Source: Acidobacteriota bacterium
GTDB lineage: Bacteria > Acidobacteriota > Vicinamibacteria > Vicinamibacterales > SCN-69-37
NCBI GenBank assembly: GCA_020853395.1
Contig: JADYYY010000011.1
Location: forward strand, 186,001 to 250,000
Direction of reading: 5' to 3'
DNA: 64,000 nucleotides
The notes under the pieces are model-generated. The model was not told the DNA's origin, did no database searches, and worked only from the letters and a program-made list of their open reading frames with translations. Below, in pieces: positions 26,137-44,087 of the stretch. The position numbers and the translations under genes are program-made. How positions within the stretch are numbered: the stretch's first letter is position 1; every line of letters begins with the position of its first letter.

Positions 26137-27114
26137 TCAGGCCATGTTCGCGAGCACGATGTTGTAGACCATCCGCACCGCGGGATCGAGGTCCACTTCG
26201 ATGGTGTACAGCCCCGTGAACCCGAGCGACTCGGTGTACCGGATGGCCGTGCCGAGATCCCACAACGGGCTCGTCTTGACGTGCACGCTGCCGGCGTTGG
26301 ACGTGAACATCCCGGCGATCGCCTCGTGCAGCTCGCGCTGGCTGAGGAATCGGCCGGTGCGGCCGAAATCGACGTTGGTGTAGCCGCCGGCGGCTCGCGC
26401 GCACTCCTCGAGCAGGCCCCACGTGAAGCGCGAGCGATTCGGCAGATCCGCGGGCGGGCCGTACTCCTTGCTGTTGTACGGGCGATTCTCCGCGGAGATC
26501 TTGATGCCCTTCGGCCGCGCGTAGTCCTGGATTTCCTTCCACACGGCGGTCGCGACCGCCATGTTCTGATCGTTCAAGCCGCTCTGATTCAGCAGCAGGC
26601 GCGTCGCCCCGAGCACGGGCGCCGCGTCCACCCACTTCTTCGCGTGCGCCATCCATGCCGCGCGCGCGTCGGGCGCGCCGAGCTCCGTGATGGCGCCGAT
26701 CTCCAGGTTGATCTGGTTGGCGCGCGAGCCCGCCGCGTCGATCCTCGATTTCAGCTCGCGGAAGAATGCGACGTCGGGCTCGCTCGTCCCCTGCGCGAGA
26801 TGCGTGTGCTGGAACTCGATGTTCCGCACGCCGTACTGGTCCACGTAGTACTGGGGTAGATCGAACAGCGCAAGCGTCTGAGCCGGACTGGGCGTAGCGT
26901 TCCACGGCAGCCGGAGCATCGGACCGTGGTTCAGCGTCATGATGCCCACGCGCGCGAGCTTCTCGAGAGGAACGGGCGCGGGGCCTTCGCCGCGCCCGGT
27001 GGGGTTCGCCGTGGCGCTGCGCGGGCCCATCGGCGCCTGCGCGCCATCGGCTCGGACGGTGGCGGCCGCCGCGACACCGGCCATCGCGTTCGTGAGGAAT
27101 CGGCGTCGGTTCAT
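26137..27114 (-). CDS. Tat-exported sugar isomerase/epimerase-like TIM barrel (paralogue 1)
   Basis: A 325-residue AP-endonuclease-2/xylose-isomerase-like TIM barrel with a twin-arginine signal (NRRRFLTNAMAG). The metal-site pattern of sugar epimerases is readable: Glu209 (ISAEN), Asp249 (NVDFG), His278 (HVKTSP) and Glu306 (TIEVD). The same four residues occur in the paralogues at 36061, 41977 and 43059. Annotated relatives are called sugar phosphate isomerase/epimerase, but export to the periplasm argues against a phosphorylated substrate; an epimerase or lyase acting on free or keto sugars is more likely (inference). Divergent from the membrane protein at 27295. Confidence 0.9.
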   Translation of the reverse strand: MNRRRFLTNAMAGVAAAATVRADGAQAPMGPRSATANPTGRGEGPAPVPLEKLARVGIMTLNHGPMLRLPWNATPSPAQTLALFDLPQYYVDQYGVRNIEFQHTHLAQGTSEPDVAFFRELKSRIDAAGSRANQINLEIGAITELGAPDARAAWMAHAKKWVDAAPVLGATRLLLNQSGLNDQNMAVATAVWKEIQDYARPKGIKISAENRPYNSKEYGPPADLPNRSRFTWGLLEECARAAGGYTNVDFGRTGRFLSQRELHEAIAGMFTSNAGSVHVKTSPLWDLGTAIRYTESLGFTGLYTIEVDLDPAVRMVYNIVLANMA

Positions 27115-27294
27115 GCTGTCCTGTTGCGATCGACCTCGGTGGCTCGCACGAGAGACATCATACCGGCACGCTGAAGTCGAGGCCTATCACCGCACCGCGA
27201 CCGGGAGCGTGGTATCCCTCATGATGCCGGGGAACTTCAGCCCATGCGCGGGCTGTGATACCGTCGCGCCCTACTCAACAGCGAGGAGGCATCC

Positions 27295-28029
27295 ATGGCT
27301 ACCGCGAGCCTGGCGCGCGCCAGCCGATCCAGCGAGCGCCGTTTCTTCGTCGGCATGACCGTCGCGATGTTGGTCGCCATCCTCGTCGGCTTCGCGCGGA
27401 GCTTCTTCCTGCGCCCGCTGTTTCCAGCGTGGCCGTCGCCGTCCGAGCCGGTCTTCTACGTGCACGGGGCGCTGTTCTCGATCTGGTGCGTGCTGCTCGT
27501 CGTGCAGCCGTCGCTCGTGGCGACCGGCCGCACGGCATTGCACCGCCGCGTGGGGGTCTGGGGCGTCGCGCTCGCCGCGGCGATGGTGCTGGTCGGAGTC
27601 TATGTCGCGCTCGTCGCCGCCGCACGGCCTACCGGGTTCACCGGCGTGCCGGTACCGCCGCTGCAGTTTCTCGCGATCCCCATGATGGACATGGTGCTCT
27701 TCGCGGCGTACGTCGCGTTGGCGGTCGTGAAACGTCGCGATCTCCAGGCTCACAAGCGATGGATGCTCCTCGCGTCGATGAACCTGCTCACCGCGGGCTT
27801 TGCCCGCTGGCCCGTCCTGGCCACGATGCCGGTGCTCGTGCCGTTCGCCGTCACCATGTCGTTCTGGGTGAGCTTGATCGCCTGGGACGTCCGATCGCGC
27901 GGCCGTATCCACCCGGCCACGCTCTGGGGCGGTCTCGTCCTGTTGTTGTCGGTGCCGGCGAGGCTGCTCATCTCCGGCACGGCGCCATGGATCGCGTTCG
28001 CGGGTTGGATGGTGGCGCAACTGCGCTAG
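27295..28029 (+). CDS. Six/seven-helix membrane protein with conserved histidines
   Basis: A 244-residue polytopic inner-membrane protein. Helices include VGMTVAMLVAILVGF-like and GALFSIWCVLLVVQPSLV segments and a C-terminal LLISGTAPWIAFAGWMVA. Histidines in FYVHGALFS, ALHRRVGVWG and LQAHKRWMLLAS resemble those of DUF2306/DUF420-type proteins, which may bind haem, but the match is only by eye. The start ATG follows GAGGAGGCATCC. It stands alone between divergent and unrelated genes. Function unknown. Confidence 0.75.
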   Translation: MATASLARASRSSERRFFVGMTVAMLVAILVGFARSFFLRPLFPAWPSPSEPVFYVHGALFSIWCVLLVVQPSLVATGRTALHRRVGVWGVALAAAMVLVGVYVALVAAARPTGFTGVPVPPLQFLAIPMMDMVLFAAYVALAVVKRRDLQAHKRWMLLASMNLLTAGFARWPVLATMPVLVPFAVTMSFWVSLIAWDVRSRGRIHPATLWGGLVLLLSVPARLLISGTAPWIAFAGWMVAQLR

Positions 28030-28324
28030 TCGATCACCGCCGTCGTCTTCGCGGGCGAAAGAGGCTCGGTCGCCGTATCTCGAGCGCAAGTCGACGGCGC
28101 ACCAGCGAGGCGCCTGCGCCGTCAGCGCGCCAACACATCCGCCGATCTCGCGCTCCCGCTCCGATCGTCTCGACCCTCCGAAAAAACAGCGGACGCCCGC
28201 GCAAAAACCCGTGCGTCTCCGTCCCGGGTTTCGCGGCTCGTGAGGCCCTCGTCATGACCGTGCGGCACTTCCTTTGCAGCCGACAGCGGCGGCTCAATGT
28301 AACTGCAGCTCGAGGGAGGGCCTC

Positions 28325-31300
28325 ATGAGGGCGCGTGCCGTTCTTCTGTTCTCGGTCTTGGCAGCCACTGCGGCCGGCGCGGTGCTCTCCGGCCAGAAGT
28401 CTCCGGAGGCGACCGCGGCCGGCTTGAAGCCGGCGCCGGGGCTCGAGGCGACGCTCTTCGCCGCCGAGCCGATGGTCATGAACCCGACCAACCTCGCCGT
28501 GGACGAACGCGGCCGCGTCTGGGTGCTCGAAGGCGTCAACTACCGGCGCGCGGCGCGCAAGCTCCCGGACCTTCGCCCCGAAGGCGACCGCATCATCATC
28601 CTGGAAGACACCGATCTCGACGGCAAGGCGGACAAGGTCAAGGTCTTCGACCAGAGCCCGTCGCTGCGCGTGCCGCTCGGCATCGCCGTGTTCGGCGACA
28701 AGGTCGTCGTCTCGCAGTCGCCGGACATCATCGTGTACACCAAGGACGCCGAGGATCGGATCGTCAAGAAGGACGTGCTGCTCACCGGCTGGGGCGGAGC
28801 GGACCACGACCACGGCGTGCACGCGATCGTCTTCGGCCCGGACGGCCGCTACTACTTCAACCAGGGCAACACGGGCTTCGATCTGACGGATCGATCCGGC
28901 AAACGTCTCGTCTCCCAGATTACCGGCGCGGAGACCAGGGCCGGTTACTACCAGGGCGTCGTTGTCCGCATGAACGAGGACGGCACCGGCCTCGACGTCA
29001 TCGCGCAGAACTTCCGCAACCCCTACGAGCTCGCCATCGACTCGTTCGGCAACATGTTCCAGACCGACAACGACGATGACGGGAACGCGTGGACGCGGCT
29101 CGACTACGTCATGGCCGGCGGCAACTACGGCTACCGAGGGCCGCGGCACCGCACGTTCCTCGAGGACGGCGGCACGCACTGGCACCTGGAGGCGCCTGGC
29201 GTCGTGCCGCAGGTCGAGCGTCTCGGCGCCGGCTCGCCGTGCGGCGTGTTCTTCTACGAAGGCACCCTCCTGCCGGAGCGGTTCCGTGGCCAGTTCTTCC
29301 ACGCGGAGGCCGGCCGGCGCGTCGTCGAGATGTACCCGCTGACCGACGATGGTGCGGGGTTCAAGGGCACGAAGGCCGATCTCGTGAACATGGGAGACGA
29401 CACGTGGGCGCGGCCGTGCGATGCGACGGTGGCGCCCGATGGATCCGTCTACGTCGCGGACTGGTACGACCCGGGTGTCGGCGGCCATCAGATGGGGGAT
29501 CCCGAAGGCAAGAGCGGCCGCGTCTATCGCGTGGCGCCGATCGGACACCGGCCGCAGGTGCCGAAGCTCGACCTGAACTCGACGGCAGGACTCACCGCGG
29601 CGCTGCGATCGCCGAACGACACGATCAAGTACCTGTCCTACACCGCCATCGAAGCGCGCGGACAGGGCGCGCTGCCGCTGCTCCAGGCCGCGTGGTCGGG
29701 AACGGATCCGATCCTGAAGGCACGGGCGCTGTGGCTGCTCGGGCCGCTCGGCGCGCCCGGCAACGCGGCGATCCAGCAGGCGCTTCGCGATCCGGATCCG
29801 CGGTTCCGGATCCTCGGTCTGCGCGTGGCGCGCGAGACCGGCGCGAGCGTCCTGGACGTCGCGAAGCCGTTGCTCGCCGATCGTTCGCCGCAGGTGCGGC
29901 GCGAGATCCTGGTGATGCTGCAGGACTCGTCGCGCATGCTTCCGGCGTACGGCTATCCGCCACAGGTGCAGCCCACCCCGGCGTGGCTCGACGCGGTTGC
30001 GCAGCTCTCCAGTCAGCACGACGGAAAGGACCGCTGGTATCTCGAGGCCATCGGCATCGCGGCGCGAGGCCGTGAGGAGGCGCTCTACGCGCGGCTCGAG
30101 AGCCGGCGCGCGGCGATGTCGGATGCGGCGTTCAACCAGATCGTCTGGCGGCTCCGGCCGAAGACCGCGCTCCCGGATCTCTTGGCGGTGATGAACGACG
30201 CGACGTCGCCGGTCGCGGCCCGGCAGGCCGCGCTCGATACGGTCGGCTGGATGGAGTGGCCCGAGGCGGCCAGCGTGATGGAGACGTTCATGACGGCGCC
30301 GGCCACGCCGCCGGCGCTGGTCGAGCACGCGTTCGGCCTCTACAGCCATCAGCTCATGAGCCAGTGGATGGAGTCGCGGACGAGCGCCGCGCTTCCAGCC
30401 GTGATGCGGAAAGCCCTCACGCTGCCTGGTGCGCAGGCGGCTGCCGTCGGGGTGGCCGATGCGCTTGCCGATCCGCAGTACCGGCCCGACCTGCTCGCGC
30501 TCGCGAAGTCGGGCGGCGCCACGCCTGCGGCGCGCGCGGCCGCGCTCGACTCCATCGCGACCACCAAGGACGTTCAGTACCTCCGCGAGTTCCAGGCGCT
30601 CGCCGACAACGCGCCCACGCCCGTGCGCGTGGCCGCGATCCGCGCTATCGGCGGCCTCGCGCAGCCGGGCGTCGAGGCGTGGGCGCAGGAGCTGCTGTCG
30701 AGCGATGCCCCGAACGAAGTCCGCGTGCAGGCGCTGCGGCTCTTGGGCACATCGGTGCCCGGCCTGAACGCGATTCTCGACCTCGCGGAAGCCGGCCGAA
30801 TTCCGGCGGAGCTGCTGGCGGTCGCGCGTCGCATCACGAACAGCGCCGCGCCGCCGCCGGCCGCGGGCCGCCGTGGTGCGGGGCAGTCGCCCGTGGCGAT
30901 GCGAGCCGCGCCGACGGCGCCCACCGATCCGGCCTACGTCGCGATCCGTGCGCGGGCGGCGAAGGTGCTGGCCATGCCCGGCACCGTCATTCCGACCGCG
31001 TTCCAGCTCGACCTCAACTACGGCGGCCGCGCGGCCGAAGGGCGCAAGGTGTACGACACGGACGCCGCCTGCGCGGCCTGTCACAGCCTCGGCGACGGGC
31101 GCCGAACGCTCGGCCCCGACCTGTCGAAGATCGGCGAGAAGTACGGCAAGCAGGCCATGCTCGACGACATCCTGAACCCGAACGGCGCCATCGGACCGGA
31201 GTACATCACGACGGTCTTCACGATGAAGAATGGCAGCTCGGTGTCGGGGCTCATCACCGGCGAGACGGCGACCGAGGTCACGATCGCCGTCGGCACCGAG

Positions 31301-31435
31301 TCGCAGCGTCTCGCGAAGAGCGAGATCGCATCGCGGAGGCCCGTGCAGGTATCGTCCATGCCGGAGGGGCTGCTGAGCAACTTGTCGCTGCAGCAGATCG
31401 CGGACCTGCTCGAGTTCCTGTCGACGCTGAAGTAG
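28325..31435 (+). CDS. PVC-type haem-binding dehydrogenase: NHL-like propeller, HEAT repeats, cytochrome c
   Basis: A 1036-residue exported protein. After the signal peptide, residues about 35-420 form the membrane-bound dehydrogenase propeller (NPTNLAVDERGRVWVLEGVN, GPDGRYYFNQGN, NPYELAIDSFGNMFQTDNDD, VAPDGSVYVADWYD). Residues about 420-860 are HEAT/armadillo-like repeats. The C-terminus carries a single haem site, Cys916-Ala-Ala-Cys919-His920, in the 'PVC-type haem-binding' domain; a small beta-barrel (GSSVSGLITGETATEVTI) is inserted before the likely axial Met in SSMPEG. Family members occur with periplasmic carbohydrate breakdown genes in Planctomycetes and relatives; the substrate is unproven. 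ATG 28325 follows GAGGGAGGGCCTC. Confidence 0.92.
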   Translation: MRARAVLLFSVLAATAAGAVLSGQKSPEATAAGLKPAPGLEATLFAAEPMVMNPTNLAVDERGRVWVLEGVNYRRAARKLPDLRPEGDRIIILEDTDLDGKADKVKVFDQSPSLRVPLGIAVFGDKVVVSQSPDIIVYTKDAEDRIVKKDVLLTGWGGADHDHGVHAIVFGPDGRYYFNQGNTGFDLTDRSGKRLVSQITGAETRAGYYQGVVVRMNEDGTGLDVIAQNFRNPYELAIDSFGNMFQTDNDDDGNAWTRLDYVMAGGNYGYRGPRHRTFLEDGGTHWHLEAPGVVPQVERLGAGSPCGVFFYEGTLLPERFRGQFFHAEAGRRVVEMYPLTDDGAGFKGTKADLVNMGDDTWARPCDATVAPDGSVYVADWYDPGVGGHQMGDPEGKSGRVYRVAPIGHRPQVPKLDLNSTAGLTAALRSPNDTIKYLSYTAIEARGQGALPLLQAAWSGTDPILKARALWLLGPLGAPGNAAIQQALRDPDPRFRILGLRVARETGASVLDVAKPLLADRSPQVRREILVMLQDSSRMLPAYGYPPQVQPTPAWLDAVAQLSSQHDGKDRWYLEAIGIAARGREEALYARLESRRAAMSDAAFNQIVWRLRPKTALPDLLAVMNDATSPVAARQAALDTVGWMEWPEAASVMETFMTAPATPPALVEHAFGLYSHQLMSQWMESRTSAALPAVMRKALTLPGAQAAAVGVADALADPQYRPDLLALAKSGGATPAARAAALDSIATTKDVQYLREFQALADNAPTPVRVAAIRAIGGLAQPGVEAWAQELLSSDAPNEVRVQALRLLGTSVPGLNAILDLAEAGRIPAELLAVARRITNSAAPPPAAGRRGAGQSPVAMRAAPTAPTDPAYVAIRARAAKVLAMPGTVIPTAFQLDLNYGGRAAEGRKVYDTDAACAACHSLGDGRRTLGPDLSKIGEKYGKQAMLDDILNPNGAIGPEYITTVFTMKNGSSVSGLITGETATEVTIAVGTESQRLAKSEIASRRPVQVSSMPEGLLSNLSLQQIADLLEFLSTLK

Positions 31436-31652
31436 TCGCGGCGATCGCGGTCGCGTCAGCCGGCCCGAGCGGCGCGGGCCGGCACGCGACTGGCCAGCGG
31501 CACCGTCGCGTCGGACCGACCACCCAGCATGACCCGAGCAGGGCCGGCTGCGCGGGTCATGGATAGAACGGCGCCCATCGGCGCTCGACCTACCGACCCC
31601 GCGCCCCGGCCCGTTTCGTCGGTTCCGATCCGCAGCAGCAGGATCTAGCGTG

Positions 31653-31697
31653 TGTCAATAGCTAAATCTTGACATGCGCTACTTGTTGCCGTAGGCT
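31653..31697 (+). promoter_or_regulatory. Promoter with overlapping inverted repeat
   Basis: A consensus -35 TTGACA (31669-31674), a 17-bp spacer and TAGGCT (31692-31697) lie just upstream of the start at 31704, so the transcript would be almost leaderless. TGTCAA at 31653-31658 is the exact inverted partner of the TTGACA, 10 bp apart, giving a dyad that covers the -35 box. It could be an operator for the winged-helix regulator encoded second in this operon. Confidence 0.65.
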
Positions 31698-31703
31698 CAC
31701 GGC

Positions 31704-32694: not shown

Positions 32695-32825
32695 CCGAAC
32701 GGCAGGCGGACGCGCGCGGCGATGTCCCGCTCATCGCTCCTATCGTTCGAGCGGCTTGCCTGACGCGGGCGCCGGATATCGTCAGATCGAAGTAGGATGC
32801 GGATCCGATCGACGCAGGAGCTCAC

Positions 32826-33773
32826 ATGAGCCGTACCGTTGTCGCGCTGAGCGTTCTCGCCCTGGCCTGCCTGTCCTACTCCGGCGCCGCCGGCGCCTCG
32901 GCGCAGGCGCCGCTCGAGGTGTTGCTCATCACCGGCCAGAGCAATCAATTCCACAACTGGCGCGTGAGCAGCGCCATCATCAAACGGCAGCTGGAGGAGA
33001 GCCGGCGGTTCGCCGTGACGGTCGCGACGACCCCGCCGAAGGGCACCGAGCCCGGACAGGACATGTCGAGCTTCGCACCGGACTTCCGCAAGTACCGCGC
33101 GGTGGTGCTGGACTACGAAGGCTTCGAGTTCGCGCCGGCGACGAAACGTGCGCTCGTCGACTTCGTCTCGAGCGGCGGCGGCCTCGTCGTGACCCACGCG
33201 GCAGACAACGCCTTCCCCGCGTGGCCCGAGTTCAACGAGATGATCGGCGTCGGCGGCTGGGGCGGGTTCACGCCAGGCTACGCGAACCGCACGGCCGCGG
33301 CCGGACCCAAGGTCCGATGGCGTGACGGCCGGATGGTGCTCGATCGCGAGACGCCCGGTGAGGCGCAGCATCCGAGCCCGCACGACTTCGTGATGACGGT
33401 GCGGACGCCCGACCATCCCATCGTCAACGGGCTGCCTCGCGAGTGGCTGCACGCCAGGGACGAGCTGTACAGCAACCTCCGCGGCCCTGCCAGGAACCTC
33501 ACGGTGCTCGTGACCGCGACCGCGCCGGCGACGATGCCAAACGGCACCGGCGAGAACGAGCCGCTGATCATGGCGCTGACGTACGGCAAGGGACGCGTGT
33601 TCCATGACACGCTGGGCCACGTCGGTCCGACGCAGACGGAGCCGATCGCCTCGATGAGCTCCGTCGACTCCATCACGCTGCTCCAGCGCGGGACCGAATG
33701 GGCGGCGTCCGGCAGCGTGACGATTCCAGTGCCGGCTGACTTCCCGACGAAAGACAAGACGTCGGTCCGCTAG
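32826..33773 (+). CDS. Exported ThuA-domain protein
   Basis: A 315-residue protein with a signal peptide (VVALSVLALACLSYSGAAGA) and a ThuA (trehalose-utilisation, glutamine-amidotransferase-like) domain: VLLITGQSNQFHNWR, VVLDYEGFEFAPATKRAL, GGGLVVTHAADNAFPAW and GRVFHDTLGHV. ThuA proteins occur with sugar isomerases, DUF1080 proteins and PVC-type cytochromes in gene clusters for oxidised sugars; ThuA of rhizobia is linked to 3-keto-trehalose formation. The direct reaction of this exported version is unknown. Good start at 32826 with AGGAGCTCAC upstream. Confidence 0.9.
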   Translation: MSRTVVALSVLALACLSYSGAAGASAQAPLEVLLITGQSNQFHNWRVSSAIIKRQLEESRRFAVTVATTPPKGTEPGQDMSSFAPDFRKYRAVVLDYEGFEFAPATKRALVDFVSSGGGLVVTHAADNAFPAWPEFNEMIGVGGWGGFTPGYANRTAAAGPKVRWRDGRMVLDRETPGEAQHPSPHDFVMTVRTPDHPIVNGLPREWLHARDELYSNLRGPARNLTVLVTATAPATMPNGTGENEPLIMALTYGKGRVFHDTLGHVGPTQTEPIASMSSVDSITLLQRGTEWAASGSVTIPVPADFPTKDKTSVR

Positions 33774-34010: not shown

Positions 34011-34682
34011 TTACGGACCGACCGTGAAGCGCACGGTCTTCGTGACGCCCCAATGCTCGAGTGACATCTCGATCGACTCCGGCGTCGACACGTAGAACGT
34101 GTCGATCTGGAAGGTGCCGGTGACCTCGCCCTTGGCGATGTAGACCGCCGCCGGAACGCGCACGGCCGACAGACCGGCGGGCGTCGACTTCCAAACGATC
34201 GGCAGTCGAATCCCGTTGGACGGGGCCGGCAGCGTCACCGTCGCCGTGCCGCGAATCGGCGCACCGCCCGTGACGGACGAGGCGGCCAACGTCAGATCGA
34301 CGAGCTGGTTCGGAATCCAGGTGTACTTCGTGGCGTCGCTCGTCGCGGACGAACCGCCCTCGGTGACCACCACGACGTCCGTCGCGCCCGGTGCCGCCCC
34401 GCCGGGCGCCGTCGCCGTGATGGAGGTCTCGAAGCTCACCACGTAGGTCGTGGCTGGCGTCGTGCCGAACAGCACGGACTGGACGTTGGTGAAGCCCGTG
34501 CCGCTGATGGTGACGTCGATGCCGCCGTCGACGCTGCCCGACGCGGGGGCGATCGCCGTGACGGTCGGCGGAAGCCGGGTCGTCGTGGTCGGCGAGGAGG
34601 GGGTCGCCGCGTCCCCGCACGCGCTGGCGATCAGCACCGCCAGCACGAGCGCACCACGGGAGATGTTCGAGAGATGTGACAT
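34011..34682 (-). CDS. IPT/TIG-domain lipoprotein
   Basis: A 223-residue putative lipoprotein: signal LVLAVLIASAC with Cys as the lipidation site. Residues about 38-120 are an IPT/TIG immunoglobulin-like fold (PPTVTAIAPASGSVDGGIDV, FTNVQSVLFG). The C-terminal 100 residues are a second beta-rich region (VDLTLAASSVTGGAPIRGTA), resembling a domain repeated in Acidobacteriota exported proteins. The start was set at ATG 34682 because it begins the signal peptide; the reverse frame is open much further. Divergent from another lipoprotein at 34846. Surface binding or scaffold role is likely. Confidence 0.8.
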   Translation of the reverse strand: MSHLSNISRGALVLAVLIASACGDAATPSSPTTTTRLPPTVTAIAPASGSVDGGIDVTISGTGFTNVQSVLFGTTPATTYVVSFETSITATAPGGAAPGATDVVVVTEGGSSATSDATKYTWIPNQLVDLTLAASSVTGGAPIRGTATVTLPAPSNGIRLPIVWKSTPAGLSAVRVPAAVYIAKGEVTGTFQIDTFYVSTPESIEMSLEHWGVTKTVRFTVGP

Positions 34683-34845
34683 GGCTGTGACGCGTGTCCT
34701 CGTTCGCGTACTCCGTGTCGCACGCAGGCGACGCCGGAAGGGGACAGTGAAACCGTGACATGGACGACATCGCGCGAAAGGTCGTCGTCGCGGCGCTCTC
34801 GTTGCAAGGATCGTTCTGGCAATCGCATTGCTGTGCGGTTGCCGC

Positions 34846-35799
34846 ATGGCGCGGCGGCACCTGCTGATCCTGGGCTGTCTCGTCGGTCTCGTCGCGTGCA
34901 GCGATGCCGCGACGCCGACCGACCCCACCGACACGACGACGGCCACTTCCGACACCGTGGCTTCGGTTCTCGTCCCGCCGTCGCTGACCATCGCCGTCGG
35001 CGACACCTTCCAGGTCCGCGCCGTCGTCGTATTGAAGGCCGGAGGCGCCGAGCTCGTGACGACCAATGGGACGTGGCAGTCGGCCGATGGCGCGATCGTC
35101 TCAGTGGACAGCGCGGGCGTCATCACCGGCGTGTCGTCCGGCAGCACGGGCGTGGCGGTCTCCGTCGACGGCATCGCGGGCGTCACGGTCGTCGACGTCG
35201 TGGAGAGCGTCGGCAGCCGGACGTTCACCGGCGTCGCGGCGCTGACCGCCGGCAAGGTGGCGACGCTGACGCTCGTGTTCAAGACGTTGCCGCGCGTCAC
35301 CGGCACGCTGTACACGAGCGCCGGCTCGTTCCTGCTCGCCGGCCGCCTCGACGAGCAGAGCCGCGTCGTCAACGTCTCGGGCGGCGGGTTCACGCTGCTC
35401 GGCACCGCGACGGGCGGTACGCTCGCCGGCACGCTCACGGATCCGGCCGGTGCGGCAGGAGCCTTCTCGGCGTTGGAGTCCACGCACGTCGCCGTGACCC
35501 CATTCTGTGGTGAGTACTCGACGGAGGGCATCTCCGCCGGCGGCGCCGACGAGCAGACGGGCGCGCTCGGGCTGGTCGCCGCGTTGGACGGGACCGTGGC
35601 TGCCGCGACCGTGTCGGCGGATGCGAGCGCCGCTCCTGCGACGTTCATCGGCCGACGCGCGGGCGATGCGTTCAGCCTCACGTCGGCTGAGCGGCTGCCG
35701 CTCGAAGGGACGTTCGCCGGAAGCGCCGTGAGCGGCCCGTTCACGACGCCGGCCGGGCTCGCGGCCGCCTTCACCGCCCGCACGCGGACGTGCCCATGA
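34846..35799 (+). CDS. Lipoprotein with bacterial Ig-like (BIG2) domain
   Basis: A 317-residue putative lipoprotein: MARRHLLILGCLVGLVAC with lipobox LVAC. After a Thr/Asp-rich linker, residues about 45-125 form a BIG2-type domain (SLTIAVGDTFQVRAVVVL, SVDSAGVITGVSSGSTGVAV). The rest is beta-rich and Thr/Gly/Ala-rich, with no known enzyme motif. The start at ATG 34846 fits the signal peptide best; the frame is open to 34828. Its stop overlaps the next start as ATGA. Function unknown, probably at the cell surface. Confidence 0.78.
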   Translation: MARRHLLILGCLVGLVACSDAATPTDPTDTTTATSDTVASVLVPPSLTIAVGDTFQVRAVVVLKAGGAELVTTNGTWQSADGAIVSVDSAGVITGVSSGSTGVAVSVDGIAGVTVVDVVESVGSRTFTGVAALTAGKVATLTLVFKTLPRVTGTLYTSAGSFLLAGRLDEQSRVVNVSGGGFTLLGTATGGTLAGTLTDPAGAAGAFSALESTHVAVTPFCGEYSTEGISAGGADEQTGALGLVAALDGTVAAATVSADASAAPATFIGRRAGDAFSLTSAERLPLEGTFAGSAVSGPFTTPAGLAAAFTARTRTCP

Positions 35800-36092
35800 G
35801 CGGCTCGAGGCTCGTCTGCGATTCGTTCGAGGAACGCCGTAGCGACCCCAGCCGCACACGGAGGCCACGAACACGGTCCTGGCGGCGCGAACGGGACCAG
35901 GCGCCGATTGGCGCAACGTGCCCGTCGTGCGGCTCGTCCAGCATTCAATGGCTCGAAGACGCGAGCCCAGACGCGTCAGCCGACTACTATCGCTGCCGGC
36001 CTTGTGGCCAGCACTGGGTGATTCGCCGCAACGGCAGCCAGATCGCCGCGTGCCTGCCGCTCAGATGTGCTCCACCAGCACGTCGTAGATGA
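35796..36092 (+). CDS. Small zinc-ribbon protein
   Basis: A 98-residue protein whose centre has a CPSCGSSS.....YRCRPCGQHWVI zinc-ribbon pattern (two CXXC pairs about 24 residues apart). The N-terminal 35 residues are basic and low in complexity, so a shorter start is possible. The ATG overlaps the lipoprotein stop (ATGA), and the 3' end overlaps the convergent gene by 32 bp. Single-ribbon proteins of this sort are common and uncharacterised in Acidobacteriota. The cysteine spacing is the main support for calling it real. Confidence 0.55.
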   Translation: MSGSRLVCDSFEERRSDPSRTRRPRTRSWRRERDQAPIGATCPSCGSSSIQWLEDASPDASADYYRCRPCGQHWVIRRNGSQIAACLPLRCAPPARRR

Positions 36093-37056
36093 TCTGCTGG
36101 TTCTTGTACGGATCCTGCGTCATCGGATTGCCGGGCTGCGGCGGCGAATTCGGATTCGGCGTGTTGGCCTCGATGGAAAAGAGCCCCGTGTAGCCGAGCT
36201 CGCGCGCGAGCGCGAGGCCCGCCGGCAAGTCGTAGCGCAGCGGGTTGATCTTCACGTGCGTGTTGCCGTCGGTGAGCGGCAACATCGCGCGCATGCCGGC
36301 GTGCTGCATCTGCTGATCGGGGAAGTTCCCCATGTCGCAGTTGGCGTACGTGCCGGCCGCCTTGATGATCTCCACGAGCAGCAGGTAGGCTGGCGGCCCC
36401 TGCGGCACCGGCGTCGCCGACGGGGACGGGGCTGCGCCACCCTGGCCGGCGGCGGCCGGCGCCGCACCGGGCACCGGCTGGTAGGCGCCGCGGTTCTCCA
36501 TGCCGACCTTCACGCCCTTGCTCCGGCCGTAGTCGCCCATCGCCTTGAGCGCGGCGATGGCGATCGCCTTGTTCTCCTGCGTCGGCGCGCCTTGATTGAC
36601 CATCACGCGCGGGCTGCCCAGCGTGACGGCGTGGTCGATCCAGCGCTTGGTGAGGTCGACGGCCTGCAGCCGCGACGTCAGGTCCGCGGCCGACATGTTC
36701 TGCGCGCCGAACTCGAGGTTGATGTTCGTGACCTTCGAGCCGCTCTTCGCGAGCTTCGCCCTGAACTCACGTAGCCACGAGTCCTCGGTCGAGAGCAGGT
36801 GGCCGTGCTGCAGCTCGACGTTGTGCACGCCCCAACGATCGGCATAGAGCTCGCCGATGTCCATGAGGTCGAGCGTCCGCTCCGGCGAGCTCGCCGCATC
36901 CGGCCGCTTCAGGATCCTGTCGAAGCCCAGGCTCATGATCGCGATGCGATCCACCCTGGCCCGGTTGGTGCTCTTCTGCGCGCGCACGCGCCGCGGCATC
37001 ATCACGCTGCCGACCGCCAGCCCCGCCACACCCTTGAGTAACTCCCGCCGTTGCAT
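36061..37056 (-). CDS. Tat-exported sugar isomerase/epimerase-like TIM barrel (paralogue 2)
   Basis: A 331-residue member of the same family as 26137-27114, with a Tat signal (QRRELLKGVAGL). The metal-site residues are Glu187 (GMEN), Asp241 (NCDMG), His267 (HVKINP) and Glu296 (SIEAN). It is the most divergent of the four paralogues, has a Pro/Ala/Gly-rich insert around 195-220 and ends in a longer, different tail (QQIIYDVLVEHI). Ribosome site AGAGGAGCGCGGC precedes ATG 37056. Same strand as the DUF1080/FG-GAP gene upstream (204-bp gap), perhaps one operon. Likely substrate: a free or oxidised sugar in the periplasm (inference). Confidence 0.87.
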   Translation of the reverse strand: MQRRELLKGVAGLAVGSVMMPRRVRAQKSTNRARVDRIAIMSLGFDRILKRPDAASSPERTLDLMDIGELYADRWGVHNVELQHGHLLSTEDSWLREFRAKLAKSGSKVTNINLEFGAQNMSAADLTSRLQAVDLTKRWIDHAVTLGSPRVMVNQGAPTQENKAIAIAALKAMGDYGRSKGVKVGMENRGAYQPVPGAAPAAAGQGGAAPSPSATPVPQGPPAYLLLVEIIKAAGTYANCDMGNFPDQQMQHAGMRAMLPLTDGNTHVKINPLRYDLPAGLALARELGYTGLFSIEANTPNPNSPPQPGNPMTQDPYKNQQIIYDVLVEHI

Positions 37057-37260: not shown

Positions 37261-39387
37261 CTACTTCGTCCCCGGCTTCCGCAGGTTCAGGAACACGTAC
37301 GTGCCGAGATTGGCCGACGTGATGATGTCGTTCATGCCGTCGCCGTTCAAGTCGGCGACCACCAGGTGCGAGCCGACGCCTGAGCGGTTGTGGACGAGCT
37401 CAGGCTCGAAGCGGGCGCCGCCCGGCGCCGCCTTGTCCCGCACCGTCCGGTAGACGTACAGGACCGGCTCGCTCCACGGATCCGGATCGGAGTAGCCGAA
37501 GTGCGACATGTACCGCTTGCCGGTGACGAGGTCGGGGATCCGGTCGCCGTCCATGTCCGCGCACGCCGCGGCGTGCGGCTCGGTGAACGTGACGTTGCCG
37601 GCGTTCTTCGTCAGGAAGTTGTCCATGACGATGTGCTCGACGAAGGTGATGGTCTTGGCGGCATCGCGCTTCTGCTCCCACCACGCGATGCCGAACCCGT
37701 GCCCTTCCATCGGCCCGACGGCGTCCATCAGCCCGTCGCCGTTGACGTCGTAGCCGCAGATCTCCGCGCCGCCGGCGCCGCCCTGCGAGGCGCCCCAGCG
37801 GCCGAAGGGCGTCGGATGCAGCGTCCAGGTGCCCGACGTGCCCGTCGGCGGCTGCTCCCACCATCCGTACGCGTTCAGGAAGTCCATGCGGCCGTCGCCG
37901 TTGATGTCCGCGACGCCCAGGCCGTGACCGATGTTGACGCCCCACGGTCCCGGCTCCGACACGTCGCGCGTCACCCACAGCGACGTCGGGTTGTTCGGAT
38001 CCCACCGGGCTGGATCGAACGTCGAGTAGCGCAGGCGGTTCATGCCCGCGTGGATGAGGTCGGGCCGCTTGTCGCCGTCGATGTCCTTGAAGAGCGTCTC
38101 TTCGTTGCCGACCGGCTGAATCGTCGCGTACTTCCGCCAGTGCCGTGACTGGCCCTTGGGATTCTCGAACAGCCAGCCCGTGCCGTTGCCCGCGTTGCCG
38201 CTCATCTGCAGCACGTCGGCCCAGCCGTCGCCGGTGAAGTCGTAGGCGACGTTCACCATCGCCGGGATCGGCCATTCGGACGTCGGATTGAACGAGACGG
38301 GCGCGTAGATCTGCTTGCCGACCTTGTAATCGGGCCCGAGGTAGTAGAAGGCGCCTGCGGCGATGTCCGGCACCGAGTCGTGGTTGAAGTCGGCGACGGC
38401 GGCGCTCCAGGAGTAGTAGTGCGGATCGACGCGGATCTCCCTGAAGGTCTTGCCGGTCTCGACCGGCGCCCAGGTGTGGTTCAGGATGTCCTTGTACATG
38501 AAGTCCTTGATCCGAACCTCGCCGCTGCCGCCGACGTAGAAGCCGATCTGCCCGAAGCCGTCCTTGTCGGCATCGGGAATCGTGCGGCCGGCGCCGCCGC
38601 CGAGCGAGCCGCCGTTGAACTTCGGCTGCACGCTGTTCTCCGACAAGAGCACTTCGACGTCGTTGTAGCCGCCGGCGGCGTAGGCACCGGCGGGCCGATC
38701 GGCCAGCCGCGACTCCTTCGGATACTTGGCGGCCAGCTCGGGCGACATCGGGGGCGCTGGCCCTGCGCTGACCGCACGGCCACCGCCGAGCTGGGCGGTC
38801 AGGGCCGTCATGCGCGCCGTCGCGCTCTCGGCCGCTCCTGCACCGGCTGGCGCGCCGCCGCCGGCGCCCGCCGCGCGGCCGCCGCCCGCCGCTGCGGCCG
38901 CGCCGCCAGGCGCCGCACCTGCGCCGGCACCCTGACGGCCGCCGCCACCGCCGCGGCCGGCCGGCGCCGGCAGCGCCTCGCGGCCGATCTCCTTGCCGCT
39001 CGCATCGATCTTCACGAGGTACGGCACGAGGTCGTTCTCGGTGACCGACATGAGCACGCCCTTCATGCCGCCGTCCGGGGTCTTCTCGGCACGCATGAGG
39101 ATGCCGGCTCTGCAGCCGCCGGCGCACTTCATGCTCGCGTAGATCTGCGTGTCCTGGAAGTCCTTGCCGTCGACCAGCAGCCAGCCGCCGCTCGCTTCTT
39201 TCGGCGTGCCGACGATCTCGCCGTTCTGCATTGTCCAGTCCGCGGCGCCGATCGGCTTGAACCCGCTCAGCGCCGTGCCCGTAAACCGATAGTCCGCCCT
39301 GAAGGTCGGACCCGCCGTGAAGACCGACATCGCCAGCAGCAGAGACGCTGCTGCGGTCGCGACCGTCATCGTGCGCCAGTTCCTCAT
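37261..39387 (-). CDS. DUF1080-like domain fused to seven FG-GAP/VCBS repeats
   Basis: A 708-residue exported protein (signal MTVATAAASLLLAMSVFTAG). Residues about 25-345 form a concanavalin-like DUF1080-type sandwich (WTMQNGEIVGTPKEASGGWL, RIKDFMYKDI), interrupted by a Gly/Ala-rich insert around 145-200. Residues 355-705 hold seven calcium-loop repeats, for example ADFNHDSVPDIAAG, KDIDGDKRPDLIHA, ADINGDGRMDFLNA and ADLNGDGMNDIITS, giving a seven-bladed propeller. DUF1080 is the family now named 3-keto-disaccharide hydrolase. Start ATG 39387 follows GGGAGACAACGT. It is divergent from the regulator at 39575. Confidence 0.88.
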   Translation of the reverse strand: MRNWRTMTVATAAASLLLAMSVFTAGPTFRADYRFTGTALSGFKPIGAADWTMQNGEIVGTPKEASGGWLLVDGKDFQDTQIYASMKCAGGCRAGILMRAEKTPDGGMKGVLMSVTENDLVPYLVKIDASGKEIGREALPAPAGRGGGGGRQGAGAGAAPGGAAAAAGGGRAAGAGGGAPAGAGAAESATARMTALTAQLGGGRAVSAGPAPPMSPELAAKYPKESRLADRPAGAYAAGGYNDVEVLLSENSVQPKFNGGSLGGGAGRTIPDADKDGFGQIGFYVGGSGEVRIKDFMYKDILNHTWAPVETGKTFREIRVDPHYYSWSAAVADFNHDSVPDIAAGAFYYLGPDYKVGKQIYAPVSFNPTSEWPIPAMVNVAYDFTGDGWADVLQMSGNAGNGTGWLFENPKGQSRHWRKYATIQPVGNEETLFKDIDGDKRPDLIHAGMNRLRYSTFDPARWDPNNPTSLWVTRDVSEPGPWGVNIGHGLGVADINGDGRMDFLNAYGWWEQPPTGTSGTWTLHPTPFGRWGASQGGAGGAEICGYDVNGDGLMDAVGPMEGHGFGIAWWEQKRDAAKTITFVEHIVMDNFLTKNAGNVTFTEPHAAACADMDGDRIPDLVTGKRYMSHFGYSDPDPWSEPVLYVYRTVRDKAAPGGARFEPELVHNRSGVGSHLVVADLNGDGMNDIITSANLGTYVFLNLRKPGTK

Positions 39388-39529
39388 ACGTTGTCTCCCA
39401 GTCCCGTCGATCGACATCGAGGTCCAAATGAATGGCGTGCGCGGTCGTCGTTTCCGCCGACGCCCATGGCACCGCCCGATGCGTGGTGTAGCATGGGCGT
39501 CATCGCCCTGGCGCACTCAGGCCGAGGAT

Positions 39530-39547
39530 GTTCGAAGTTTTTCGAAC
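39530..39547. promoter_or_regulatory. Inverted repeat GTTCGAA-N4-TTCGAAC
   Basis: A perfect 7-bp inverted repeat with 4-base spacer (GTTT) in the divergent control region, 27 bp before the CadC-like regulator's start and 143 bp before the DUF1080/FG-GAP gene. Size and placement suit an operator for autoregulation by the regulator itself. Confidence 0.5.
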
Positions 39548-39574
39548 TATTTCTCGGCCGCGGCGCGGGCCGTC

Positions 39575-41950
39575 ATGACGCCGAGGCCTCCAGCCCGCTT
39601 CTACCGCGTCGGATCCTGCCAGATCGACGCCCGCCGCCGGCAGCTCTGGCGCGACGGCGAGCCGGTGCCGCTCACGGCGAAGACGTTCGATCTGCTCCTT
39701 TTCCTGGTCCGGCGCCCCAACCGCGTCATCGAGAAGGCGGAGTTCTTCGCCGTGCTCTGGCGCGATACCACGGTCGTCGAAGCGAACCTGGTGCGGCAGG
39801 TGTCCCTCCTGCGCAAAGCGCTGGGCCAGCGCTCCGACAGCCACGATTACATCGTCACGATTCCCGGGCGGGGGTACGAGTTCGTTGCGGACGTCGAGGA
39901 GCTCGAGGCGGAGCCTCCAGCGGCCGTCCAAGACGAGGCGGCGCCCCCTGCGATGGCCCAGCGGCCGCGCCCGGAAGGGCAGGACGGGCCGGAAAGGCAG
40001 GAAGGACACGGGGAGCCGGCCGCGCCGAGAGGCGAAGGCGCCGTTGCCGCGGCATCCAGGTCCGTGTGGGTGGGCGCGATGCTGACCGCCGTCGTGGTGA
40101 TCGCCGGGATCAGCGCGAGCGCCTTGTGGTGGACCTCTGGACTCGATCGGCAGGCGTCGTCAGCCGAGCGCGTGCTTCGGCAGGTGACCTACGAAGAAGG
40201 GTCGCCACGCGAGCCGTCCTGGTCGCCCGATGGCCGGCAGATCGCGTTCACGTCCGACAAGTCCGGCAACGCGGATCTCTGGGTGCAGACGCTCGACGCG
40301 CCGGGCCCGCGGCAGCTCACCACGGACTCGGCGCAGGATACGACGCCCGACTGGTCGCCGGATGGTCGCTGGATCGTCTTTCGATCGGAACGGGACGGCG
40401 GCGGCATCTTCCGGATCTCGGCGGACGGGACCCGCGAGGAGCGCGTCGCGACGTTCGGCTTTCACCCGCAGTGGTCTCGCGCCGGCGATCTGATCCTGTT
40501 CTCGGGTCCGACCGTTCGCACCGGGCCTCGCAAGTTCTTCGTCGTCGAGCCGGATGGCGGCATTCCGCGGGAGGTCGCGGTCGACATCGTGGCCCGCTTC
40601 ACGAACGCGGGCACGGTGAAGGTCGGCTGGCTCAACTCGGTGACCGCCGCGTGGCATCCGGATGGCCGCCGTGTCTCGTTCTGGGGCCGGGCCGCCGACG
40701 GCCGATGGGAGCTCGTCACGACCGACGTGGCCGGCCGCAGGCCCACCGTGTCGGACATTCCCGCGCCGGCGCAGGAGAAGCTCCAGCGCGAAGTGGCATT
40801 CAGCCGGTTCGTCTGGGGTCCCGACGGCCGTCACCTCTACTTCGAAGGCGAAGCGGCGGCCGCCACCAACATCTGGCGCGTCGCGGTGAACGCCGCCACG
40901 CTGGCGTGGCTCGACCTTCCCGAACGTCTGACGATGAGCGCCGGCGAAGAGCGCGACCTGGCGATCGCGCCAGACGGCACATCGCTCGCGATCAGCATCG
41001 GGTCGGCGCGCACGCGGCTGTGGGCGATCGACTTCGACGGCCGGACCGGCCAGATCGTGGGTCAGGGCGACGTGCTGACGTCCGGCAACGCCGGCGAGAT
41101 CGACGCGGAGGCGACGCGGGACGGGACGAAGATCGCCTACCGCGCGACGCGCGCCGGACGGAACGAGGTCTGGGAGCTCGATACGGCGAGCCGGCAGGAG
41201 CGGCTGCTGCTCGCCTCGACGGGCTGGCGCCCGTCGCTGCCGCGCTGGTCGCCGGACGGGCGCCTCATGGCCTTCAACCGCGGGACGCTGCAGGAGCGCG
41301 ATGCGCGGGTGGCGGACGCGATTTCGGTGCTCTCGCCGGCGGAGGGACGCGAGCGCCTGGTCTCGCTGCCGCCCGGCGCGAACATGAGGCCCACCGACTG
41401 GTCCGCCGACGGCCACACCATTCTCGGCGAGTGTCACGTCGCGGCGGATCAGCCGATGTCCGTCTGTGGACTCCGCGTCGACGCCGCCGGCGAGTCCGGC
41501 TCGGCGATGCGGATGATCGCCACCGACCCGCGGCTGAACCTCTGGGTGCCGCGGCTCTCTCCCGATCAGCGGTGGGTCGCGTTTCTCGCCGCGGGCGTGG
41601 TGGACGCGCCAACGTCACAGGTCTTCGTCACCGGCGTGACCGGCGGTGCGTGGATTCCCGTGACCGATGGGCAGTCGTTCGACGACAAGCCGCGCTGGTC
41701 GCCGGACGGCAGGACGATCTACTTCATCTCGAGCCGCGAGGGCGTGCTGAACGTCTGGGCGCGTCGCTTCGATCCGGCGGCCGGCCGCCCCGCCGGCCAA
41801 CCGTTCAGGGTCACGGACTTCTCGGGACCGGAGCGGATTCTGCCCTCGCAGATCTCGCGCATCGAGTTCGCTGTGACGCGCGACCGGCTGATTCTGCCGA
41901 TCACCGAACCGGCCAGCAATCTCTGGGTCCTCGAGCACGCCGACCGGTAG
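39575..41950 (+). CDS. Membrane winged-helix regulator (CadC/ToxR-like) with TolB propeller sensor
   Basis: A 791-residue one-component regulator. Residues 10-107 are an OmpR/CadC-type winged helix (LTAKTFDLLLFLVRRPNR, EANLVRQVSLLRKALG, YIVTIPGRGYEFVADV). A Pro/Glu-rich linker leads to a transmembrane helix at 164-186. Residues 195-791 are periplasmic TolB/WD40-like blades (PSWSPDGRQIAFTSDKSGN, PDWSPDGRWIVFRSERDG, PRWSPDGRTIYFISSREG). It should sense an extracytoplasmic signal and act directly on DNA. Its position beside DUF1080 and sugar isomerase genes suggests control of that region. ATG 39575 was chosen at the start of the wing domain; the frame is open upstream. Confidence 0.9.
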   Translation: MTPRPPARFYRVGSCQIDARRRQLWRDGEPVPLTAKTFDLLLFLVRRPNRVIEKAEFFAVLWRDTTVVEANLVRQVSLLRKALGQRSDSHDYIVTIPGRGYEFVADVEELEAEPPAAVQDEAAPPAMAQRPRPEGQDGPERQEGHGEPAAPRGEGAVAAASRSVWVGAMLTAVVVIAGISASALWWTSGLDRQASSAERVLRQVTYEEGSPREPSWSPDGRQIAFTSDKSGNADLWVQTLDAPGPRQLTTDSAQDTTPDWSPDGRWIVFRSERDGGGIFRISADGTREERVATFGFHPQWSRAGDLILFSGPTVRTGPRKFFVVEPDGGIPREVAVDIVARFTNAGTVKVGWLNSVTAAWHPDGRRVSFWGRAADGRWELVTTDVAGRRPTVSDIPAPAQEKLQREVAFSRFVWGPDGRHLYFEGEAAAATNIWRVAVNAATLAWLDLPERLTMSAGEERDLAIAPDGTSLAISIGSARTRLWAIDFDGRTGQIVGQGDVLTSGNAGEIDAEATRDGTKIAYRATRAGRNEVWELDTASRQERLLLASTGWRPSLPRWSPDGRLMAFNRGTLQERDARVADAISVLSPAEGRERLVSLPPGANMRPTDWSADGHTILGECHVAADQPMSVCGLRVDAAGESGSAMRMIATDPRLNLWVPRLSPDQRWVAFLAAGVVDAPTSQVFVTGVTGGAWIPVTDGQSFDDKPRWSPDGRTIYFISSREGVLNVWARRFDPAAGRPAGQPFRVTDFSGPERILPSQISRIEFAVTRDRLILPITEPASNLWVLEHADR

Positions 41951-41976
41951 CGCGCCGAGCCTGGGCGGCGCGGCCG

Positions 41977-43008
41977 CTACGGCAGGTTCGTGAGGACCGT
42001 GTTGTAGACGATCCGCACGGCCGGATCCTCGTTGACCTCGATGGTGTACCGGCCCTTGTAGCCGATCGACTCGGCGTACTTGATCGCCGTGCCCAGGTCC
42101 CACGTCGGGCTGACGCGCGTGTGCATGCCGCCGCTGTTGCGCGGGAGCAGGCCCTTGATCGCGTCGTGCAACTCCTGCTGATCGTGGAAGCGGGTGTCGC
42201 CGCCGAAATCGAGGTTGGTGTAGCCGCCGCTCGCGACGGTGCACTCCCAGAGGATGCCCCACACGTATCGGAGGCGTTCCTTCTCGGACATCGCCGGCGG
42301 GGCCGGAGCCGGCGCACCCTGGCCGCGATTGCCGGCCGTCGGCATGCCGCTGCCACGCGTCTCGCCCGAGATCATGATGCCCTTGGGCGTGGCGTAGTCC
42401 TGCAGCTCCTTCCAGAGCGCGGTCACGCCGGCCTTGCTGTCGTCGGTGAGCGCGCCCTGGTTGTGCATGAGGATCGTCACGCCGAGCGCGGGCGACAGGT
42501 CCACCCACTTCTTCGCGCGCGCCAGCCACGCGGCGCGCGCCTCGCCCGCGAGCGCCGCCGCCTTGCCGTCCGGCCCGATCTGGGCCATCGTCCCGATCTC
42601 GATGTTGATCTGGTGCGCCTTGCAGCCGGCCGCGTCGAGCTTCGCCTTCAGCTCGCGGATGTACGACATGTCGGGGGCGTCGTAGTTCTGCGCCACGTGG
42701 TTGCTCTGGAACTGGACGTTCCGGACGCCGTACACGTCGACGTAGTACTGCGGCAGATCGAAGATGTCGAGCGTGCGCTGTGGCGTGGCGTCCTGCCATG
42801 GCAGCTTGATGATGCTGCTGTGGTTCAGCGTCATGATCTCGACGCGGGCCAGCTTCTCCGCCGGCACGTTGGCCGGACCGCCGCGTCCGCCGCCGCCGCG
42901 CCCACCCTGGCGTCCGGCCGCTGGAGGCGGTGCCGGCGCCTGGCCGAATCCCGTCACGCCCATGCCGGCCGCCGCCGCGGTCCCTGTCAGGAATTCACGT
43001 CGATTCAT
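41977..43008 (-). CDS. Tat-exported sugar isomerase/epimerase-like TIM barrel (paralogue 3)
   Basis: A 343-residue paralogue with Tat signal (NRREFLTGTAAA) and a Gly/Pro-rich linker before the barrel. Metal-site residues are Glu216 (SGET), Asp267 (NLDFG), His296 (HTRVSP) and Glu324 (TIEVN); note Arg in place of Lys after the His. Ribosome site TGAGGAGACACC precedes ATG 43008. It is 50 bp downstream of paralogue 4 on the same strand, so the two are probably co-transcribed, and it converges on the CadC-like regulator with 26 bp between. Confidence 0.9.
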   Translation of the reverse strand: MNRREFLTGTAAAAGMGVTGFGQAPAPPPAAGRQGGRGGGGRGGPANVPAEKLARVEIMTLNHSSIIKLPWQDATPQRTLDIFDLPQYYVDVYGVRNVQFQSNHVAQNYDAPDMSYIRELKAKLDAAGCKAHQINIEIGTMAQIGPDGKAAALAGEARAAWLARAKKWVDLSPALGVTILMHNQGALTDDSKAGVTALWKELQDYATPKGIMISGETRGSGMPTAGNRGQGAPAPAPPAMSEKERLRYVWGILWECTVASGGYTNLDFGGDTRFHDQQELHDAIKGLLPRNSGGMHTRVSPTWDLGTAIKYAESIGYKGRYTIEVNEDPAVRIVYNTVLTNLP

Positions 43009-43058
43009 GGTGTCTCCTCATCGAGCGGCCTGCCGTCCGGCCGGCGCATCGCGGCGGC

Positions 43059-44087
43059 TCAGGCGAGCGGGTTCTTCACGTTGGCCAGGATGATGGCGTA
43101 GACCTGCCGCACCGCAGGATGCCCGTTGACTTCGATCGAGTACAGCCCGCGATAGCCGAGCGACTCGGTGAACCGCACGGCCGCGCCGATGTCCCAGTTG
43201 GGGCTCGACTTGATGTGCATGTTGCCTGAAGACGTCGGGTAGAGCGCCTTGATGCCCTCGTGCAGCGTCTGCTGATCGGGCGCGCCGACGTTCCCGATGT
43301 CCACGTTGGAGTAGGCGCCCGCTGCCTTGATCACGTCGGCCAGCAGGGTGAACGCCGTTCGCGCGGTCACGCGGGGATCGGGGGGCGGCGTCGGCGCCTG
43401 CGGCTGTTCGCCGGGCTGGCCGGTGGCGCGTCCGCGTCCACCGCCTGCGCCGCGCGTCTCGGCCGAGATCTTGATCCCCTTCGGCCTCGCGTAGTCCTGG
43501 ATCTCCTTCCAGACCGAGATGCAGTTCGCCTTGTTCTCTTCGTTGAGCCCGGTCTGGTTGAGCATCAGGCGGGTGCAGCCGATGATCGGCGCCGCGTCGA
43601 CCCATCGCTTGCCGAGCGTCATCCACGTCTGGCGCGCCTCGCCCGCTAGGTTCGGTATCGTGCCGATCTCGATGTTGACCTGCGAGGCCGTGACCTTGGC
43701 GGCGTCGAGCCGAGCGCGCATGTCGCGGAAGAACGCCGCGTCGGGCGGCGTCTGGCCGCCGTTCACCAGGTGGCCGTGCTGGAACTCGATGTGGCTGATG
43801 CCGTAGACGTCGCGGTACATCTGGGGCAGGTCGAGCACGTCGAGCGTCTGGTTCTCGTTCGGGGTCGTCGTCCACGGGAACGTCAGCATGTTGCTGAAGT
43901 CGAGCGTCATGATCGCCACGCGCGCGAGCTTGGCCGCGGGCACGTTGGCCGGCGCGCCGCCGCGCCCTCCGCCGGCGCCGCCTCGACCCTGCGGCGGCGC
44001 AGTGATCGGCGCGCCCCCTTGGCCAAATGCGCTGCCGCCGAGCGCCGCCATGCCCGCCGCGCCTGCGAGAAACTTCCGTCGATTCAT
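43059..44087 (-). CDS. Tat-exported sugar isomerase/epimerase-like TIM barrel (paralogue 4)
   Basis: A 342-residue paralogue with Tat signal (NRRKFLAGAAGM). Metal-site residues: Glu210 (SAET), Asp263 (NVDIG), His291 (HIKSSP) and Glu319 (SIEVN). A Pro-rich insert lies around 217-240. It is most similar to paralogues 1 and 3 (shared FQHGHL, VWKEIQDYARPKGIKISAE). First gene of a two-gene operon with 41977-43008. ATG 44087 follows CGGGGGAAGCC; the frame is open upstream but has no signal peptide there. Confidence 0.9.
   Translation of the reverse strand: MNRRKFLAGAAGMAALGGSAFGQGGAPITAPPQGRGGAGGGRGGAPANVPAAKLARVAIMTLDFSNMLTFPWTTTPNENQTLDVLDLPQMYRDVYGISHIEFQHGHLVNGGQTPPDAAFFRDMRARLDAAKVTASQVNIEIGTIPNLAGEARQTWMTLGKRWVDAAPIIGCTRLMLNQTGLNEENKANCISVWKEIQDYARPKGIKISAETRGAGGGRGRATGQPGEQPQAPTPPPDPRVTARTAFTLLADVIKAAGAYSNVDIGNVGAPDQQTLHEGIKALYPTSSGNMHIKSSPNWDIGAAVRFTESLGYRGLYSIEVNGHPAVRQVYAIILANVKNPLA

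Follow-up and report, generated by a model that had tools for sequence, protein, structure and literature searches.

Putatively exported xylose-isomerase-like barrels expanded in a single Acidobacteriota genome and their possible role in periplasmic keto-sugar metabolism

Metal-dependent keto-sugar chemistry is performed by several barrels of the sugar isomerase/epimerase type, among them the 3-keto-glucal hydratases LgdB2/AtHYD, the D-allulose/tagatose 3-epimerases and UlaE, which belong to NAD-linked or cytoplasmic pathways. LgdB2, annotated as a sugar phosphate isomerase, hydrates 2-hydroxy-3-keto-glucal with Mn2+ (PMC7676230). The O- and C-glycoside eliminases (OGE/CGE; AtOGE, DgpB-C) are TIM barrels with an Mn2+ site on strands β5–β8 that act after 3-oxidation, and their operons also encode a glycoside dehydrogenase and a further oxidoreductase; their catalytic His follows the β5 metal ligand by two residues (His143 in PuCGE and His134 in AtOGE, where mutation showed it to be essential; PMC10628242). 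Periplasmic oxidise-then-cleave routes are also known: BT2156-2160 of Bacteroides thetaiotaomicron couple periplasmic oxidation to cleavage by a DUF1080 protein (PMC11300592, PMC12385236), and LacABC with DUF1080 has been proposed to do so in Caulobacter (PMC9007349). Here we describe four TIM barrels, B1 to B4, encoded in a 64,000-nucleotide stretch (the window) of an Acidobacteriota bacterium of the order Vicinamibacterales (assembly GCA_020853395.1, contig JADYYY010000011.1, positions 186,001 to 250,000). Together with neighbouring DUF1080, ThuA and dehydrogenase genes, they had been read in an earlier note as one periplasmic keto-sugar pathway.

The most solid new result is a 14-copy, lineage-specific expansion of this uncharacterised, putatively exported barrel family, which carries an invariant Glu-x-Arg/Lys site. 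It is the genome rather than the window that is special, the window being one piece of a genome-wide expansion. Besides the 14 barrels, the genome (4.28 Mb, 99.9% complete) holds 32 DUF1080 matches, about 25 genes for pyrroloquinoline quinone (PQQ) propellers (adjacent fragments counted as one gene), 10 haem proteins with DUF7133, seven ThuA, 19 Gfo/Idh and five GMC matches. At E ≤ 1e-30, a barrel was found in three of the 118 other genomes of the class, as a single copy each. Within the same GTDB family, one of 13 other genomes has a barrel at this threshold and four more have a remote relative only (E ~1e-13 to 1e-16). Relatives were sampled within one phylum, and a 396-genome sample of it added two further singletons. 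A motif-based scan of 84,980 species gave two remote matches; its patterns are so specific to their clade that it is no proof of absence, yet it should probably have caught members resembling clade I. A search of plasmids gave no match.

In a tree, seven of the 14 copies, including B1, B3 and B4, form a clade (clade I) without any outside member, while the remaining seven are interspersed among the singletons from other genomes. The 14 paralogues are 31–66% identical, and thus either the expansion is old or the copies were gained separately. Over aligned residues, B1, B3 and B4 share 49–54% pairwise identity, and B2 is 32–36% identical to them. Only B2 exceeded the cut-off of the Pfam model AP_endonuc_2, B1 scoring below it and B3 and B4 remaining unmatched, which indicates that the family is poorly covered by Pfam. 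The three barrel loci lying within ~18 kb, out of 12 loci genome-wide, represent a mildly unusual clustering (p = 0.011). A second, distinct exported barrel family was observed near two barrel loci (L053:15301-16257 and L057:7008-8165), with AP_endonuc_2 matched in one of the two.

The four window sequences were used to predict the structure of mature B4 (pLDDT 80, pTM 0.79). The model clearly has the fold of a xylose-isomerase-like TIM barrel and matched many members of that superfamily (AP_endonuc_2) with Z-scores of 20–27; together with the Pfam match of B2, it places the barrels in this superfamily. The nearest fold, at Z 26.6 and 19% identity, is 4ovx, an uncharacterised protein with a xylose isomerase domain from Planctomyces limnophilus, which is also the best sequence match of the barrels in the PDB (2.9e-10). 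Further structural neighbours were the isomerase Art22, UlaE, D-allulose/tagatose 3-epimerases, C-glycoside eliminases of the CarB/C and DgpB/C types and the 3-keto-glucoside 1,2-lyase of Alistipes. What the barrels would share with the hydratases, 3-epimerases and UlaE is the sugar isomerase/epimerase type of barrel and metal-dependent keto-sugar chemistry. All four window barrels begin with an Arg-Arg (RR) motif followed by a hydrophobic stretch; these N-termini and the sugar-enzyme structural neighbours argue against a DNA-repair function of the AP-endonuclease 2 type, and that reading was set aside.

The Glu-Asp-His-Glu set that had been noticed in the four barrels as a metal site (Glu209, Asp249, His278 and Glu306 in B1 numbering) proved invariant in them and in all 19 proteins compared, and its residues sit on β5, β6, β7 and β8, respectively, as a predicted metal site; Glu138 is invariant in the 19 as well. 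Position 211, two residues after the β5 Glu, is occupied by Arg in 18 of the 19 proteins and by Lys in the most diverged one (G431). It is here that the barrels part from their closest described counterparts: 4ovx likewise has a Glu on β5 but continues it as Glu-Asn-His, with His at the position of the catalytic His, and OGE/CGE enzymes have that His as their hallmark. That the barrels are 3-keto-glycoside β-eliminases of the OGE/CGE type, releasing aglycones in the periplasm after 3-oxidation, is suggested by the shared metal scaffold (PMC10628242) and by the presence of DgpB/DgpC, other CGEs and the Alistipes lyase among the structural neighbours; the Arg/Lys at 211 speaks against it, and we regard it as improbable. 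This replacement of the catalytic His makes isomerase, epimerase or hydratase chemistry likelier than elimination, and the barrels are probably isomerases, epimerases or hydratases. In xylose isomerase the β5 motif is Glu-x-Lys, with the Lys holding the oxyanion, and Arg/Lys at 211 might do the same in the barrels.

Co-occurrence across the class, which had been suggested as a check of the proposed pathway, gave a divided answer. DUF1080 is present in 94 of 119 class genomes and the barrels in four, so most DUF1080-bearing genomes do without barrels, and DUF1080 is not bound to them. Seventeen genomes of the class, however, have 11 or more DUF1080 genes, and these include all four with barrels (p = 3e-4; with the genome under study left out, 2e-3), although some DUF1080-rich genomes lack barrels and the four are partly kin by descent. 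The association may reflect shared ecology. Within the genome, barrel loci were rotated against the positions of other gene families to assess linkage, the resulting p-values being uncorrected for ~45 comparisons. Barrels lie within 3 kb of DUF1080 genes three times (0.53 expected, p = 0.02) and within 500 bp of PQQ-propeller genes twice (0.23 expected, p = 0.02). DUF1080–Gfo/Idh linkage (4 versus 0.73 expected, p = 0.008) fits the known pathway.

Repeated adjacency of barrels and dehydrogenases is a stronger hint than these statistics. Same-strand pairs of a barrel and a quinoprotein of the GCD or alcohol dehydrogenase type occur at two other loci of the genome (C17, 364 bp apart; C11:276453, 43 bp) and in genome G107 (301 bp), and in genome G070 a barrel gene starts 18 bp after a gene for a PVC-type haem dehydrogenase. 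The proposed association of dehydrogenase and barrel is thus borne out as a recurrent neighbourhood, though its statistical linkage is weak (p ~0.02). A NagA-like deacetylase gene was seen near barrel and quinoprotein in G107 and at C17 (L047:834-8213 and L050:4525-14553), the two genomes being of different families, and the G107 locus also has NagB-like and SSF symporter genes; a link to amino sugars was considered and dropped, as neither the barrels nor the quinoproteins there are orthologous.

The recurrent pairing of barrels with dehydrogenases bears on the possibility that no joint pathway exists. In that case the genome would be that of a carbohydrate specialist in which many exported families have expanded, the neighbours in the window would be incidental, and the barrels would act on various unrelated sugars. 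The copy numbers of the families given above, the heterogeneity of barrel neighbours and the usual presence of DUF1080 without barrels all favour such an explanation. The repeated finding, in three genomes, of quinoprotein or haem dehydrogenase genes beside barrels and the association of barrels with DUF1080 load at the genome level run counter to it, and on balance we consider it rather unlikely. The idea of one keto-sugar pathway encoded by the window found little support, as its families are scattered through the genome in high copy, DUF1080 occurs mostly without barrels and the majority of barrel loci are flanked by unrelated genes. Nor is periplasmic oxidation in itself a departure from cytoplasmic NAD/FAD oxidases, as had been supposed, since BT2158 is already a periplasmic glycoside 3-dehydrogenase (PMC11300592) and LacABC with DUF1080 has been proposed as periplasmic (PMC9007349).

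The third gene of the run that begins with the second DUF1080 gene (D2), previously taken for a PQQ dehydrogenase gene, encodes a quinoprotein-like propeller. Its product (58494-60296) had as best match TIGR04528, acido-empty-quinoprotein group A, at 597 bits, just below the 650-bit cut-off. This match and the one at 74-2506, which exceeds the cut-off, are in keeping with DNA of acidobacterial origin. In an alignment of the 58494-60296 protein with PedE (6zcv), Thr-Thr replaces the vicinal Cys pair and Asp the calcium-ligand Glu, so that these two hallmarks of PQQ alcohol dehydrogenases are missing, while the Trp, GTGN and GDN motifs are retained. Since the GCD-type quinoproteins of the same genome also lack the Cys pair, it could still bind PQQ. 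The quinoproteins adjacent to barrels at other loci are GCD-like or alcohol dehydrogenase-like and not of the empty-quinoprotein type. Neither this genome nor any other barrel-positive genome of the class has pqqC, so its quinoproteins would need scavenged PQQ; scavenging by PqqU occurs in Vicinamibacteria (PMC12124388), which makes quinoprotein function plausible despite the missing gene. With ~25 PQQ-propeller genes and no pqqC, the genome is rich in quinoproteins while having no PQQ synthesis of its own.

These data also weigh on the idea that the window alone suffices for a full oxidise-cleave-isomerise route in the periplasm, in which the quinoprotein at 58.5 kb would oxidise and DUF1080 proteins would cleave. 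D2, cytochrome c and quinoprotein-like genes do form a tight run (gaps of 69 and 34 bp), and D1, the first DUF1080 gene, has B2 as its same-strand neighbour. The quinoprotein, however, belongs to the empty group and has no Cys pair, pqqC is absent, the DUF1080 domain of D1 is divergent and interrupted, and the 18-kb cluster is separated from the 56–60-kb run by ~12 kb containing sigma-factor, sensor-kinase and other genes. We therefore hold such a route to be very unlikely.

The explanation that we favour, at a probability of roughly 45%, is that the barrels are an uncharacterised exported, metal-dependent xylose-isomerase-like family acting on periplasmic keto-sugars behind quinoprotein or haem c dehydrogenases. 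These dehydrogenases would oxidise a sugar to a keto-sugar in the periplasm, where each barrel copy would bind a divalent metal and isomerise, epimerise or hydrate the oxidised sugar, carboxylates on β5 and β8 acting as bases; the variable β5–α5 loop would probably give the copies different substrates. DUF1080 proteins may feed the same keto-sugar pool without being fixed partners. We infer the keto-sugar substrate from fold and neighbours, and its formation by quinoproteins from the neighbours alone. The proposal resembles the BT2156-2160 and LacABC–DUF1080 systems in placing oxidation before DUF1080 cleavage in the periplasm, and differs in that oxidation there is due to BT2158, which is of the Gfo/Idh type, or to LacABC and not to quinoproteins. 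In searches that were not exhaustive, no lacABC-like set was identified in the genome: of the five GMC matches, among which a LacA-type 3-dehydrogenase was sought, none lies in the window, and no Tat-type small subunit stood out in their short flanks.

Several observations weigh against this explanation. RR is invariant in the alignment, and all four window barrels have RR N-termini, as expected from the twin-arginine signals ascribed to them; of the four, only B3 passes the NCBI twin-arginine translocation (Tat) model TIGR01409, B1 matching weakly and B2 and B4 not at all. In contrast to the OGE/CGE operons, Gfo/Idh genes are absent from the 10 kb around every barrel of the genome. The genes beside most barrel loci are unrelated ones, for penicillin amidase, major facilitator superfamily, methyltransferase, luciferase-like and MacB-type permease proteins. 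The uncorrected linkage tests and the missing pqqC point the same way.

The coordinates of the barrels and of other window genes are collected in Table 1. The DUF1080/FG-GAP fusion, ThuA protein, PVC-type haem protein and second DUF1080 protein listed earlier are all present by domain matches, that of D1 being weak, just over the cut-off and broken by the Gly/Ala-rich insert. Both D1 and D2 lie above the PF06439 cut-off and may cleave 3-keto-glycosides; other DUF1080 activities exist (endo-xanthanase/lichenase; PMC9007349). D1 has a Sec-type signal peptide and a likely start at 39387. The likely start codon of B4 is at 44087 (MNRRKFLAG) and not at 44372, where the longer open reading frame (ORF) starts. 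B1 is isolated and divergent from a membrane protein gene and the PVC-type haem protein gene. The regulator gene is divergent from D1-B2 and convergent with B3, and its true start is probably inside the ORF.

Table 1. Barrel genes and other features of the window (positions within the 64,000 nucleotides).
Feature	Coordinates	Strand	Description	Evidence
B1	26137-27114	−	Xylose-isomerase-like barrel, clade I; RR motif at N-terminus	AP_endonuc_2 23.3 bits, below cut-off
B2	36061-37056	−	Barrel, clade II; 204 bp downstream of D1, same strand	AP_endonuc_2 45.1 bits, above cut-off
B3	41977-43008	−	Barrel, clade I; in tandem with B4, 50 bp gap	TIGR01409 Tat model above cut-off
B4	43059-44087	−	Barrel, clade I	Alignment, structure model
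D1	37261-39387	−	Divergent DUF1080 domain, Gly/Ala-rich insert, fused to FG-GAP repeats	PF06439 31.2 bits; FG-GAP_3 3e-20
Regulator	39317-41950	+	Winged helix (Trans_reg_C) and PD40 propeller	Pfam domains
PVC-type haem protein	28325-31435	+	DUF7133/TIGR02604 propeller, HEAT, cytochrome c; likely start 28325	
ThuA-family protein	32826-33773	+	Sec-type signal peptide	PF06283 2.1e-21
D2	56540-57412	+	DUF1080 (3keto-disac_hyd), gene 1 of three-gene operon-like run	PF06439 6.9e-28, 98 bits
Cytochrome c	57482-58459	+	Gene 2 of D2 run	PF00034 8.5e-14
Quinoprotein-like propeller	58494-60296	+	'Acido-empty-quinoprotein' group, gene 3 of D2 run	TIGR04528 2.9e-179
Second quinoprotein-like propeller	74-2506	+	True start inside ORF	Above TIGR04528 cut-off

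Elsewhere in the window, a Dak1/Dak2 dihydroxyacetone kinase pair, a DJ-1/PfpI protein and an aquaglyceroporin-type channel (18267-21409) form a possible glycerol/dihydroxyacetone module. In ORF 34011-35948, only ~34011-34690, encoding a TIG-domain lipoprotein, looks real, the upstream part and the opposite strand being without a domain. An HbpS-like haem-degrading protein with a signal peptide is encoded at 45234-45734.

With oxidise-then-cleave routes already described, the novelty would lie in the family of exported barrels and in the way it is paired with dehydrogenases of the quinoprotein or haem type, and a possible periplasmic module of dehydrogenase plus barrel is the best lead. In its most specific form, the barrels would form a new exported family that isomerises or hydrates keto-sugars with Mn2+ at a Glu-x-Arg/Lys active site, acting behind PQQ or haem c dehydrogenases in a 3-oxidation coupled to the respiratory chain, with 14 substrate-specific copies in one lineage; this we consider a long shot. 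Periplasmic 3-oxidation is a recently recognised alternative to glycoside hydrolases, and if quinoproteins or haem proteins do oxidise the sugars and exported barrels finish the reaction, the electrons of deglycosylation would pass straight into respiration. The 14-copy family, nearly absent from relatives, would offer a natural panel for the diversification of substrates on a barrel fold.

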